Of a DNA stretch of 46,843 nt, positions 232-27,815 are shown one piece after another. Source of the DNA: an uncultured Oscillospiraceae bacterium (lineage in GTDB: Bacteria; Bacillota; Clostridia; Oscillospirales; Oscillospiraceae). The DNA is taken from NCBI GenBank assembly GCA_934597125.1, contig CAKTQM010000012.1, forward strand, positions 1 to 46,843. The letters run 5' to 3'. Numbering within the stretch: the stretch's first letter is position 1; every line of letters begins with the position of its first letter. Below the pieces are notes generated by a model. The model did not search any database, was not told the origin of the DNA, and saw only the letters and a program-made list of their open reading frames with translations. Both the position numbers and the translations under genes were made by a program.

Positions 232-290
232 GACAAAATACGCGGTAATTGGGAAAAGGCACTTGCAATTTTTCTGCAGCGTGTTACAAT
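232..290 (+). promoter_or_regulatory. Promoter and conserved upstream block of the first tasA-like gene
   Basis: TTGCAA at 263-268 and TACAAT at 285-290 with a 16-bp spacer form a sigma-A type promoter. A block starting GACAAAAT at 232 lies exactly 31 bp upstream of the -35 box. The second tasA-like gene has the same arrangement (block at 25587, TTGCAC at 25618, TACACT at 25640, also 16-bp spacer), so this control region appears duplicated. Bases 116-231 before it hold nothing I recognise. Confidence 0.68.
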
Positions 291-343: not shown

Positions 344-618
344 AAACCCGTTAACGGGTTTTTTGTGCTTTTATAAAAGCACAAGGTGTCTTGATAGAGT
401 GGCAGGGTACGGAGTTTCGAAAATGGCATGAGGGCTGCGGTATGGCCGGAGCCTTGTGCGTCTGACCTCCCCATTATGGGCAGACAGAGAATGGTTGCTG
501 CTCTGTCTGCCCACATCAGACAGGGAGGGCGGGCTTATACAGCGGCGCAGCCGGAGCATGCCGGACGGCTGCGCAGACCCGACGGCAAATATTTTATGAA
601 ACGGGGAGTATACCAACC
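344..618 (+). ncRNA. Structured 5' leader RNA of tasA-like gene 1 (candidate cis-regulatory element)
   Basis: Ordered elements: hairpin A, AAACCCGTTAACGGGTTT at 344-361 followed by U residues (attenuator-like); hairpin B, a 22-nt palindrome at 363-384; hairpin C, 433-440 with 446-453; an H-type pseudoknot in which GTCTGA (460-465) pairs TCAGAC (516-521) and CCTCCC (466-471) pairs GGGAGG (523-528), enclosing a perfect 12-bp hairpin (478-489 with 501-512); and hairpin E, 545-553 with 566-574. The ribosome site GGGGAG is at 603-608. CTCCCC (467-472) can pair with that site instead of with its pseudoknot partner. The leader at 25661-25925 has every element in the same order, several with compensatory base changes. 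I do not recognise a known riboswitch family. Confidence 0.72.
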
Positions 619-2019
619 ATGTCAAACAAAAAAGCTACAAAACGCGCTCTGTTGACCAGTATTTTGGCGATCTGCCTGTGTCTGGTTATGCTGATCGGCT
701 CCACCTTCGCGTGGTTCACCGACACCGCCAGCACTAGTGTCAATCAGATCCAGTCCGGTACGCTGGACGTGGATATCGTGGACAAGGACGACAATAGCCT
801 GACGGGGACAAATGCGAAAAAACTGGAATTCGTAAAGGCAACGGGCGCTCCTGCGGGCGAAGCCGTCCTGTGGGAGCCTGGCGTGACCTATAATACGGCA
901 GTCTTTAAGATTAAAAACGCCGGCAACCTGGCGTTGAAGTGGAAGGTCGAGATTGTTAAGGACGAGATTAAGAATGGTATCGTAGGTTCTGCAGATACGC
1001 CTGCCGTAAGCCTGTTGGAAGTGATTAAGTTCTCTGTTGTGGGGCCTGATGGAAAAGCTGTCGCCATTGAAAATTTTGAAGATCATCTGTCTAAAGGTAC
1101 AACAAGCGGCGAGTACCACCTGCAGGGCCACATGGACGAAAAGGCGGGTAACCAATATCAGGGCTTGACGCTGGACGGTGTGGGGATTAAGGTTTACGCT
1201 ACCCAGTACACCGAGGAATACGACAGCACTACCAACCAGTATGATAAGATGGCGGAATATTCCGATGGCACCAGCGGCGGCAATACCGGCGATGACCCCG
1301 TTGTCGATCCCATTGATGATGCGGAGGCACATCCCACCGACTCGGAGAAGCTGGCTGACTTCCTGCGGCGTACCACGGCAGATGAGGTAACCATCTATCT
1401 GAAGGAAAATACGACTTATGTTCTGCCGAATATCTCCAACAAGAATGTTACCTTTATCGGTGACGGCACCAATCTGATCGACATGGCCAACAGCGCGCTT
1501 ACCATGGGCACCAACGAGAACCTCCAGCTGACCTTCCAAAATACAACCATTCAGTTCAGTGAGACGGACAAGCAGAGCATCCCCGGCGCTGGAAGCGTGG
1601 CCTATGAGAATTGCACGATTGAGGGCCAGTACAGCATGAGCGGTGATCAGGTAAGGGCCGCCGGCTGCATCTTCAATGGCAGTGTTGTCTACACAGGCAC
1701 CGCGGCTGAGACGACTTTTAATAGATGCACATTTAACGTCGCGGAGGGTGCGGCGGTTTACGTCTGCAGCAGCGCGCCGGGCGAGAACTATACGGTGACA
1801 ATAGAGGACTGCAGTTTCAATAATGCCGGGTCTGCCACGAAATCCGCCGTGGTGATCGGCAGCGATAGTGGCAGCAATAATGCGTATGATGTCAAGATAA
1901 ATGGCTGCATGGCTAACGGCTTTGCGGCAGGCGACCGTACTGGCAGCGAGCTGTATGATTGCAGTACAGATGAGACCGTCACAGTTAGTGTGGATGACGT
2001 GCAAGTGTACCAGCGGTAA
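619..2019 (+). CDS. TasA/camelysin-like secreted protein with SipW-type signal peptide and beta-helix C-terminus (466 aa)
   Basis: The ATG at 619 follows GGGGAG (603-608) by 10 nt. Residues 1-38 form a SipW-type signal peptide: basic KKATKR, a hydrophobic core at about 11-28, then TFAWFTD. Residues 40-215 look like a TasA/camelysin domain (LWEPG, NAGNLALKWKVEI, and a GNQYQGL...ATQYTEEYDS stretch). After a Gly/Asp-rich linker, residues about 235-466 carry short beta strands with recurring NCTI, GCIF, RCTF and DCSF motifs, suggesting a right-handed beta-helix with a cysteine ladder. TasA proteins are extracellular fibre or matrix proteins released by SipW; no sipW lies in this window. The closest relative in the window is at 25926-27815. 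The substrate or ligand is unknown. Confidence 0.8.
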   Translation: MSNKKATKRALLTSILAICLCLVMLIGSTFAWFTDTASTSVNQIQSGTLDVDIVDKDDNSLTGTNAKKLEFVKATGAPAGEAVLWEPGVTYNTAVFKIKNAGNLALKWKVEIVKDEIKNGIVGSADTPAVSLLEVIKFSVVGPDGKAVAIENFEDHLSKGTTSGEYHLQGHMDEKAGNQYQGLTLDGVGIKVYATQYTEEYDSTTNQYDKMAEYSDGTSGGNTGDDPVVDPIDDAEAHPTDSEKLADFLRRTTADEVTIYLKENTTYVLPNISNKNVTFIGDGTNLIDMANSALTMGTNENLQLTFQNTTIQFSETDKQSIPGAGSVAYENCTIEGQYSMSGDQVRAAGCIFNGSVVYTGTAAETTFNRCTFNVAEGAAVYVCSSAPGENYTVTIEDCSFNNAGSATKSAVVIGSDSGSNNAYDVKINGCMANGFAAGDRTGSELYDCSTDETVTVSVDDVQVYQR

Positions 2020-7324: not shown

Positions 7325-7443
7325 CTTGGCCCCCTTGTGTAAAGGGGCCTGTCAGCGAAGCTGACTGGGGGATTGTCTCCGTAATAGACAACCCCTCTGT
7401 CAACGCTTTGCGTTGACACCTCCCCTTACACAGGGGAGGCTTT
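7325..7443 (-). repeat. MITE-like palindromic repeat, copy 1 (murG-ftsW gap)
   Basis: Read on the minus strand the element starts AAAGCCTCCCCTGTGTAAGG. It has a terminal hairpin (CCTCCCC...GGGGAGG), a second hairpin TGTCAACGC...GCGTTGACA, a central GGGGTTGTC...GACAATCCCC arm, then mirror hairpins GTCAGC...GCTGAC and a C-rich terminal hairpin. Terminal inverted repeats flanked by TA suggest insertion by a transposase supplied in trans. Related copies are at 8727-8899 and 28001-28136. Confidence 0.72.
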
Positions 7444-25586: not shown

Positions 25587-25645
25587 GACAAAATGTGCGG
25601 AAAACGGCAAAAACGCATTGCACTTTTCGAAGAAAGTGCTACACT
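25587..25645 (+). promoter_or_regulatory. Promoter and conserved upstream block of the second tasA-like gene
   Basis: TTGCAC (25618-25623) and TACACT (25640-25645) with a 16-bp spacer. The GACAAAAT block begins at 25587, 31 bp before the -35, the same geometry as at 232-290. Sequence between block and -35 aligns without gaps with the first locus. Confidence 0.68.
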
Positions 25646-25660
25646 ATATTTATATATGCC

Positions 25661-25925
25661 CAAACCCTATAGGGTTTGCTGTTTTTTCTGAAAGAAAAAA
25701 CAGCAGGTGAGGTGTGTTCGAATTTCAGTTGGCATAACGGTCGCGGGTGGCAATGCCGCGGCCTTTGTGCGTCTGACCTCCCCGTAATGGGCAGACAGAG
25801 CGTTGGTTGCTTGCTCTGTCTGCCCCATCAGACCGGAGGACAGGCCATAAGCGGCGTCTGCGCGGAATGCCGGAGCGCAGGCGTTTGACCCGCCGGTAAA
25901 TTTTGAATGGGGAGGACATGTACAT
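25661..25925 (+). ncRNA. Structured 5' leader RNA of tasA-like gene 2 (candidate cis-regulatory element)
   Basis: Same order of elements as 344-618: hairpin A (25661-25678), hairpin B (25678-25688 with 25694-25704, loop TGAAA), hairpin C (25739-25746 with 25756-25763), pseudoknot GTCTGA/TCAGAC (25771-25776, 25828-25833) and CCTCC/GGAGG (25777-25781, 25835-25839) around the identical 12-bp hairpin (25789-25800 with 25814-25825), and hairpin E (25855-25863 with 25875-25883) with the shared loop ATGCCGGA. The ribosome site GGGGAGG (25909-25915) is a perfect 7-bp complement of CCTCCCC (25777-25783). Stems A, B, C and E differ in sequence from copy 1 but keep pairing. Confidence 0.74.
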
Positions 25926-27815
25926 ATGTCAACCAAGAAAGCAACAAAACGCGCATTGCTAACCAGTATTCTGGCGATCTGCCTGTGTCTGGTTATGCTG
26001 ATCGGCTCCACCTTCGCGTGGTTCACCGACACCGCCAGCACCAGCGTCAACAAGATCCAGTCCGGTACGCTGGATGTGGGTTTGGAGATGAAAGACGCTG
26101 ATGGCAAATGGGTTTCCGCCGAGGGCAAGACCCTTACCTTCAAGACAAAAGACAACAGAGCAGCAGACCAGATCCTCTGGGAGCCGGGCTGCACCTATGA
26201 GCTGCCCGAACTGCGCGTAGTCAACAACGGCAATCTGGCGCTGAAATACAAGGTGGAGATCACCGGTATTGTCACGAATTCCGCGCCTGTAGCGGGGAGT
26301 CCGAATCTGAATGATGTTATTACATGGACGATCGTTACCAGTGATAGAAATGAGGCTAAGGATGAAAGTGGTAACGTTCTTTCTGGGCAATACTATCTGC
26401 TGCCTGCCAATACCACTACCGCTCCTCTGACCATCAAAGGTCACATGAAGGAAGATGCCGGTAACGAATATCAGGGGCTGTCCATTGAGGGCATTTCCGT
26501 CACCGTCTATGCTACTCAGTATACTTACGAATACGACAGCAGCAATAACCAGTACGATAAGGATGCTGCTTACAAGGGCTCTCAGGAATTCACCAGCGGC
26601 ACACACGTTCTGGATAAGGGCGGCGTGGCTCTGGCGACCGATGCACGTCCGGTAGCCGTGTATGCAACCGGTAGTGACACTAATGTTACCATCACCGGCG
26701 GTTATTATGACGGCGGTTCCGGCGGCGAATATAACGTAGCTGTTTGGGCGAATGACGGAGCGACGGTTACCATCAAGGACGGCTACTTCACCGTAGGCGC
26801 CGATAAGAATGGGGAAGCCAACTCGGTTATCTATTCTACTGGCGGCACCATCATCATTGAGGGCGGCTTCTTCCAGACGGATTATAGCTGGAATGGCAAG
26901 TATTATGTCCTGAACCAGCAGAACAATACCCCCGGCACTATTACCGTTAAGGGCGGTACTTTCGTCAACTATGACCCCTCCAAGGGCGATGACAACCTGG
27001 GCGGCAGCTTCGTGGCCGACGGCTATTCCGTCATCTCCGAGAAGCATGGCGAAGATACATGGTACACCGTGGTTAAGGGCACCGGCGCTGTCGCTGGTAC
27101 GCAGGAAGATCTGAACAACGCTATTAGAAACAACACTTCTGCCACCATCAAGCTGTCCACCGCTGGCACCTACACCCTGCCATCTCTGGATAACAAAGAC
27201 ATCACCGTCAAAGGCACCAAGGACACCGTGGTGGATATGACGAGCGCAGGCAATAATACTACCGGAGCGGTTATCAACAAGGCCGACAGCGCTCAATTTG
27301 AAGGCGTGACCGTCAAATTTGATGAGGATACTAATTATACAGGCTTCCAACACACGAATAAACTCGTTTACAAGGATTGTACCATCATCGGCAGACAAAC
27401 GCTGTACGCCGACAATGTAGAGTTTATCAATTGCAAATTCGTTCAGGATAAAGCTGATGCTTACCATGTCTGGACATACGCAGCGAAGAATGTAACCTTT
27501 ACCGATTGCGAATTTACCAGTACCGACTGCAGCAAGGCTGTGCTTTGCTATTGGGATGCTGGCGATGGTTATACCTTGACTCACACCTTTAATGACTGCA
27601 AATTTACATGTAATGGAACGGCGGAGAAGTCTGCTATTATGATCAATCCGTCGGCAAATGGCACGAATACTTATGTCATTAGCATCAACAATTGCACCGC
27701 TACTGGTTATGCCCAAAATGGCATCACTGATCAGACAATCGTTGGTGTGAAGGAGACGGTCAAGGACACCATTACTGTCAACATCAATAATGCAACTGTC
27801 TACACCAACCCCTAA
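25926..27815 (+). CDS. TasA/camelysin-like secreted protein with SipW-type signal peptide and extended beta-helix (629 aa)
   Basis: This is the larger paralogue of the gene at 619-2019. Signal peptide and first mature residues (1-50, with TFAWFTD) are almost the same, down to 69 identical consecutive nucleotides. A TasA-like domain follows (ILWEPGCTYELPELRVVNNGNLALKYKVEI; GNEYQGLSIEGISV; ATQYTYEYDS). Residues about 215-385 are an insert absent from the smaller paralogue with ITGGYYDGG, IKDGYFTVG, IEGGFFQTD and VKGGTFVNY turns. The C-terminus from about 390 is shared and carries DCTI, NCKF, DCEF, DCKF and NCTA repeats. It is probably an extracellular beta-helix protein of fibre or matrix type. 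The ATG follows GGGGAGG by 10 nt. Confidence 0.8.
   Translation: MSTKKATKRALLTSILAICLCLVMLIGSTFAWFTDTASTSVNKIQSGTLDVGLEMKDADGKWVSAEGKTLTFKTKDNRAADQILWEPGCTYELPELRVVNNGNLALKYKVEITGIVTNSAPVAGSPNLNDVITWTIVTSDRNEAKDESGNVLSGQYYLLPANTTTAPLTIKGHMKEDAGNEYQGLSIEGISVTVYATQYTYEYDSSNNQYDKDAAYKGSQEFTSGTHVLDKGGVALATDARPVAVYATGSDTNVTITGGYYDGGSGGEYNVAVWANDGATVTIKDGYFTVGADKNGEANSVIYSTGGTIIIEGGFFQTDYSWNGKYYVLNQQNNTPGTITVKGGTFVNYDPSKGDDNLGGSFVADGYSVISEKHGEDTWYTVVKGTGAVAGTQEDLNNAIRNNTSATIKLSTAGTYTLPSLDNKDITVKGTKDTVVDMTSAGNNTTGAVINKADSAQFEGVTVKFDEDTNYTGFQHTNKLVYKDCTIIGRQTLYADNVEFINCKFVQDKADAYHVWTYAAKNVTFTDCEFTSTDCSKAVLCYWDAGDGYTLTHTFNDCKFTCNGTAEKSAIMINPSANGTNTYVISINNCTATGYAQNGITDQTIVGVKETVKDTITVNINNATVYTNP

Follow-up and report, generated by a model that had tools for sequence, protein, structure and literature searches.

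What are the structured leaders that precede two genes of this uncultured Oscillospiraceae bacterium, and what might they do for the genes that follow? The window, that is the whole stretch of 46,843 nucleotides analysed here, contains two genes for SipW-dependent proteins. Both products are TasA/camelysin-like, with an overall protein identity of 45%, and the TIGR04088 cognate_SipW signal scores above its cut-off of 19 in each of them (Table 1). The structured leader is real as observed: one with paired changes precedes both genes, as the initial annotation had claimed, and stems A to E are found in the same order in the two copies, at the places given for them there.

Table 1. Elements of the two leaders and their genes, by position in the window.
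Copy	Feature	Position	Strand	Description
1	Candidate promoter	263..290	+	TTGCAA, 16 nt, TACAAT; consensus scan, weak
1	Hairpin A	344..361	+	Perfect palindrome AAACCCGTTAACGGGTTT
1	Hairpin B	363..384	+	Perfect palindrome, 1 nt 3′ of A; then AAGGTG
1	P1, stem closing 3′ domain	414-425/590-602 (414..602)	+	Minimum-energy fold; adjoins Shine-Dalgarno
1	Hairpin C	426..459	+	
1	Nested helix round hairpin D	460-464/530-534 + 466-471/523-528 (460..534)	+	
1	Proposed pseudoknot stems	S1 460-465/516-521, S2 466-471/523-528	+	
1	CCUCCCC	466..472	+	Complementary to Shine-Dalgarno 603-608, 6 pairs
1	Hairpin D	477..513	+	13 pairs; loop 490-500
1	Hairpin E	545..574 (545-553/566-574)	+	Loop holds ATGCCGGA
1	Shine-Dalgarno GGGGAG	603-608	+	Start codon at 619
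1	D-loop target CAACCAU	614-620	+	Overlaps start codon 619
1	SipW-dependent protein gene	619..2019	+	466 aa; PF12389 24.5 bits; TIGR04088 33.7 bits
2	Hairpin A	25661-25678	+	Perfect palindrome
2	Hairpin B	25679-25703	+	Abuts A, no linker
2	Hairpin C	25732..25770	+	
2	S1	25771-25776/25828-25833	+	
2	Nested helix	25771-25775/25841-25845 + 25777-25781/25835-25839	+	
2	CCUCCCC	25777-25783	+	
2	Predicted lock	CCUCCCCGU 25777-25785 with AUGGGGAGG 25907-25915 (Shine-Dalgarno)	+	Minimum-energy fold
2	Hairpin D	25789-25825	+	
2	Hairpin E	25855-25863/25875-25883 (25855..25883)	+	
2	SipW-dependent protein gene	25926..27815	+	629 aa; PF12389 24.1 bits; TIGR04088 30.4 bits
2	D-loop target CAACCAA	25930-25936	+	Codons 2-4 of gene

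Each leader folds more stably than its own dinucleotide shuffles, with z = −4.72 for copy 1 (300–618; 0 of 100 shuffles as good) and z = −6.61 for copy 2 (25653–25925; 0 of 200). Stems A, B, C and E had been described as differing in sequence between the copies yet remaining paired, and this is borne out. With pairing kept, three of seven pairs are changed on both sides in stem A, five of nine in stem B (compared from the loop) and six of nine in stem E, whose positions had been correctly placed. The upper part of C has three such pairs of eight, and one G–G mismatch in copy 1; in P1 there are two of ten, these pairs having been hand-picked against copy 2. The loops TGGTTGCT and ATGCCGGA are kept, each being present in both copies. 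The four pairs of lower C are identical between copies. So are those of D (12/12), S1 (6/6) and S2 (5/5 compared), and these three elements thus have no covariation support. Hairpin D was anticipated as an insert of 12 bp; the hairpin is present, but it has 13 pairs in copy 1. A single comparison, between the two copies, supplies all the leader covariation. As C-D-E was found nowhere else, the support for its pairing rests on this comparison, between copies with near-identical signal-peptide DNA. Over their first 51 codons the two genes have 39 identical codons, 10 synonymous differences and 2 residue changes. Codons 17–38 (668–737 and the counterpart within 25926–26100) are identical as DNA, which points either to a fairly recent duplication or conversion of the 5′ parts of the genes or to constraint on them.

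One part of the initial annotation has to be given up. We reject an H-type pseudoknot as the main fold, because its stems show no covariation (all S1 pairs, and all S2 pairs compared, are unchanged), its spacing would probably be strained and the sequence offers a competing nested helix. There are 0 nt between the 5′ strands of S1 and S2 and 1–2 nt between their 3′ strands, with which simultaneous formation of the two stems would be strained. The nested helix uses the 5′ strand of the proposed pseudoknot and is present in the minimum-energy fold of copy 1; copy 2 could form the same pairs, one of them changed from U–G to U–A. The word pseudoknot is therefore the name of a complementarity here, and not of an observed fold. 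On sequence and computed energy, CCUCCC has two mutually exclusive partners, 523–528 or 603–608, and the equivalent holds in copy 2. Forced folds, computed without pseudoknot energies, give −127.0 (S2), −121.5 (S1) and −120.2 kcal/mol (Shine-Dalgarno paired) for copy 1, and −128.2, −121.8 and −131.9 kcal/mol, respectively, for copy 2. The computed preference is thus opposite in the two copies, favouring S2 pairing in copy 1 and Shine-Dalgarno pairing in copy 2. As modelled, a CCUCCC with two rival partners is the arrangement that marks a Shine-Dalgarno-sequestering switch.

The loop of D has a complement of its own near the start codon. AUGGUUG (491–497) of copy 1 is complementary over 7 nt to CAACCAU, whose last two bases, A and U, belong to the start codon; in copy 2, UUGGUUG (25803–25809) likewise complements CAACCAA over 7 nt. 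The two targets sit at different places relative to the start, and the outer pair is A–U in one copy and U–A in the other. A 7-nt match arose with shuffled start regions in 668 of 20,000 trials for copy 1 and 707 for copy 2, and in 19 for both copies at once, a figure whose true weight is lower since the match was spotted after the fact among about five loops.

How general is the leader? The initial annotation knew of no riboswitch class with such a layout, and Rfam 15 agrees: across the whole window no match reached its gathering score, and so neither leader has one. At E up to 5 there were none at 250–640 and five sub-threshold matches at 25600–25960, the best of them mir-3170 (E 0.0042, opposite strand) and mir-BART19 (E 0.0053); a wcaG match there scored 18.6 bits against a gathering score of 42. 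Searches by DNA similarity with the whole leader or C-D-E, scoring two first-look candidates per genome, gave short matches in 2 of 394 sampled genomes of the order and 3 of 300 sampled from the family. All of these short matches were rejected on reading: L138 and L141 resemble 23S rRNA, L139 and L140 resemble coding DNA, and L132 and L133 have the look of a terminator or promoter region.

The same absence is seen closer to the window. By DNA polymerase I, compared over 13 genomes, G960 is the closest (82%), followed by G958, G964, G953, G938 and G350 (67–68%), these six being of one genus. The closest proteins, P0001–P0004, are 75–92% identical over their full length. With all candidates scored, C-D-E was not found in 32 genomes of this genus; matches at E up to 0.5 occurred in 22 of them (best E 9.3e-4), and none of the four loci read (L163–L166) is a leader. 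Two pattern scans of viral contigs returned 39 and 14 stretches, which on reading all lacked the remaining structure, and a protein scan of these contigs gave 59 pattern matches and no relative. No leader match came from phages and plasmids. A first scan of genome contigs found no relative; a second kept 78 TasA-like loci, with best segments up to 59% identical, against which blastn with both leaders gave one match, L087, at the start codon. Among the literature matches listed, structured-RNA surveys included, there was no SipW/TasA leader RNA. The main text of one human-microbiome survey (PMC8040213) does not contain the words SipW, TasA or camelysin; an unnamed candidate in its supplements could overlap. 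Judged from its sequence, this is probably a new cis-regulatory leader of putative function.

The expectation of further homologues upstream of tasA-like genes held for the A+B part; for C-D-E and the whole leader none was found. A+B is a recurring element of two hairpins lying 0–1 nt apart. Genome G350 has eight SipW-type matches, and on reading seven of its leaders have two abutting hairpins a short way after a −10-like box; the SipW-type locus L152 has no abutting hairpins. A strict scan on both strands (A a perfect palindrome, B with at least 8 Watson–Crick pairs, linker 0–1), covering the window and 800 kb of G350, gave five places, all before SipW-dependent genes. These 800 kb are two 400 kb blocks of 2,553,728 bases, chosen to include four of the seven A+B loci, of which the scan recovers three. 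It gave none in the viral contigs (438,197 bases) and two in the TasA-like loci (699,456 bases), one at L067 and one at L093, the latter preceding an open reading frame with a SipW-like signal by reading. Of 118 distinct SipW-type upstream regions, 14 contain A+B by a descriptor that finds 0–1 in each of 20 shuffled sets; these are the 2 of the window, 7 of G350, L067 and 4 doubtful cases. An earlier detector (6/118, shuffles 0–3) failed to pick up copy 2 and G350, and gave way to this descriptor. The 14 A+B sequences that we tabulated were chosen for forming hairpins, so that 14/14 paired is no test. Whether A is a palindrome depends on the cut (L151 is palindromic at 16 nt, not at 18), and one base of L200 is common to both A and B. 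A+B is often directly followed by a Shine-Dalgarno-like AAGG(A/U)G, which some cases lack, e.g. L067 and L303.

Within G350, stem A covaries: it has six doubly changed cells, and for these and the covariation score 0 of 500 shuffles were as high; the three pairs with a double change were reached by 30 of 500 and the five further pair types by 227 of 500. Stem B hardly varies among these copies. A tandem-hairpin model over all lineages was discarded. MAFFT misaligned A in the all-lineage alignment, and model R1 was therefore restricted to the seven G350 leaders and includes no window sequence. With 150 of 438 first-look candidates scored, R1 gives strong matches at seven places in G350 (E up to 1.6e-11), which are the same seven leaders; its eight other matches overlap these on the opposite strand. 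Run unfiltered on the window and ten loci, it ranks 343–386 first of five window hits (14.8 bits, E 0.14) and 25661–25707 third (9.6 bits, E 2.5), both weak; with default filters there was no window hit.

Copy 1 of the window lies downstream of an apparent 5S rRNA end (1 to ∼85; by reading, the gene being cut off), and the L150 gene of G350 lies downstream of 23S and 5S rRNA genes. The two may be positional counterparts in which A+B has been kept and the remaining leader is different. L150 (G350:C1:260618-261220) is a SipW-type paralogue in which TAG replaces the conserved Trp codon of the signal; its promoter side and A+B are intact.

A+B is also found beyond TasA-like genes. In G948 it stands before a gene for a sipW-type signal peptidase, which scores 81.7 bits with TIGR02228 (cut-off 51.85) and falls short of the cut-off for the Bacillus SipW model. 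Two genes with SipW-like signals by reading follow, and TIGR04088 gave no match in that genome. In G945 it precedes a TIGR02228 gene of 105.7 bits, and it lies before secreted-looking proteins in G948 (DUF5648) and G946. An A+B-like pair occurs at 9 of 57 sipW-system starts, taken from 60 loci of two family searches; six were accepted, four of them G350 leaders already counted, which by our own count leaves 51 of 57 without A+B. A family search of 400 genomes with stricter filters matched seven genomes at E up to 0.01. In three of the six other than G350, an A+B-like pair precedes a lipoprotein-like, a transporter-like and an unassigned reading frame, respectively; the remaining three resemble terminators or other sequence, although one of them, L216, passes the strict scan. 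A+B is thus enriched before SipW-system genes without being exclusive to them, and the majority of those genes are without it.

Other features were seen in these regions. A run of at least 7 G occurs in 15 of the 118 SipW-type upstream regions. In 13 cases (L057, L066, L069 (2), L099 (2), L104, L109, L113 (2), L114, L160 and L162), ∼146–172 nt before the genes, the run is within a short reading frame with a Shine-Dalgarno sequence, M(Q/K)..Q..., ending in Gly codons, suggestive of a leader peptide that slippage could vary. A TTGTAA-hairpin-TTACA motif lies 29–83 nt before SipW-type genes in L062, L065 and L072 (2 places), and also occurs in L060; on reading it is often near CAAAGGGCAT...GCCTTTTG inverted repeats. 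L308, L309 and L310 have in common a folded-looking stretch ACAGGGTGG...CCCTG before sipW-type genes, unlike A+B. In the window, 7398–7440 (+) and two places on the − strand have paired hairpins with CCTCCCC...GGGGAGG, resembling what is presumably a repeated intergenic element of gut Clostridia.

How might the leader act? We give about even chances to a leader of two modules, comprising a stabilizing 5′ A+B and a 3′ domain that locks the ribosome site in cis. Transcription would begin at an upstream promoter, placing A+B near the presumed 5′ end of the mRNA. Promoter scans are weak; the consensus scan found one before copy 1 against 0.7 per shuffle, no better than chance, and none before copy 2, where TTGCAC-16-TACACT is seen by eye. 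A+B would most likely protect the 5′ end of the mRNA, and the 3′ domain (P1, C, D and E), adjoining the Shine-Dalgarno sequence, would set translation. The putative lock would have two contacts, one of CCUCCCC with the Shine-Dalgarno sequence and one of the D loop with the region of the start codon, and would open when CCUCCC pairs with GGGAGG/GGAGG 3′ of D. This is like Shine-Dalgarno-sequestering translational riboswitches and thermometers, in that CCUCCCC would cover either the Shine-Dalgarno sequence or an internal partner, and unlike them in the additional contact from loop to start codon.

Several known systems share some of these features. In the STAB-SD of cry3A a Shine-Dalgarno-like sequence holds a 30S subunit and blocks RNase J1 (PMC4113751). 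As there, the element here would lie close to the 5′ end of the mRNA for an abundantly produced extracellular or crystal protein, and in many cases a non-initiating Shine-Dalgarno-like stretch follows B; unlike there, the common part is two abutting hairpins, and the stabilizing role is putative. The sipW-bsaA system of Clostridium perfringens is a clostridial SipW matrix system under post-transcriptional control, its operon being temperature-controlled through the 5′ UTR of another gene (PMC7395162). It too has a 5′-proximal stem–loop thought to stabilize mRNA, but the 5′ UTR in question is that of pilA2, a gene acting on the sipW promoter. The hairpin bound by LoaP is likewise in a 5′ leader, but is a single UNCG-type hairpin (PMC12691694), a kind to which neither A nor B belongs; on reading, their loops are TTAA, TATA, CATG, CGTG, GTAC and CCAG, with B loops of 3–5 nt, and none is UNCG. 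CsrA binding was considered and rejected, the E loop having no ANGGA by reading.

Could the leader instead be a ligand-binding riboswitch, with C, D and E forming a pocket from the conserved loops and binding selecting the partner of CCUCCCC? Two rival partners of near-equal computed energy, and conserved loops within changing stems, are what it would have; but no C-D-E homologues were found, no Rfam family reaches its gathering score and, to our knowledge, structural proteins are untypical targets of ligand feedback, which we count against it, so that we regard a riboswitch as unlikely. We are similarly doubtful that 445–535 is just a duplicated or converted repeat and not selected RNA, D and S1 being simply inverted repeats. 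The near-identity of this block between copies, and of codons 17–38 at the DNA level, is consistent with such an origin, but the flanking A, B, C and E have changed on both sides and yet pair, and the window holds no further copy of the block.

Two more explanations concern the 5′ hairpins. Hairpin A might be a DNA operator, its palindrome bound by a dimeric regulator just after the promoter. A is in many cases a perfect palindrome, centre included, and AAACCC...GGGTTT is common to both window copies. The half-sites are, however, 6 nt apart in one and 4 nt in the other, the arms of A differ in sequence among paralogues within a single genome, and A always has another hairpin directly beside it; an operator is therefore improbable. 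There is also a small chance that A+B is a put-like antitermination element, binding RNA polymerase so that it passes the structured leader. It has two abutting stem–loops near the presumed transcript start, as HK022 putL does immediately downstream of its promoter (PMC9378689), a likeness of layout only. The put RNA described there is ∼70 nt long with a triplex region, and its stems are bulged with polymerase-contacting bases, whereas A and B are short perfect stems of varying sequence; we claim no sequence relation, and no terminator has been shown between A+B and the genes.

Our analysis shows that a recurring tandem-hairpin module, joined to a so far private ribosome-site domain, fits better than a pseudoknot riboswitch. 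More tentatively, the two-module leader may be a new class of leader RNA in the SipW/TasA-type matrix system of gut-type Oscillospirales. In such a class a mostly palindromic A+B would mark and stabilize transcripts, and in this lineage a hairpin serving as a built-in antisense would hold the Shine-Dalgarno sequence and start codon together until CCUCCC takes its internal partner. Little is known of the control of SipW-dependent matrix proteins in uncultured gut Clostridia, and a recognizable 5′ element would allow the genes of the system to be traced from sequence alone.
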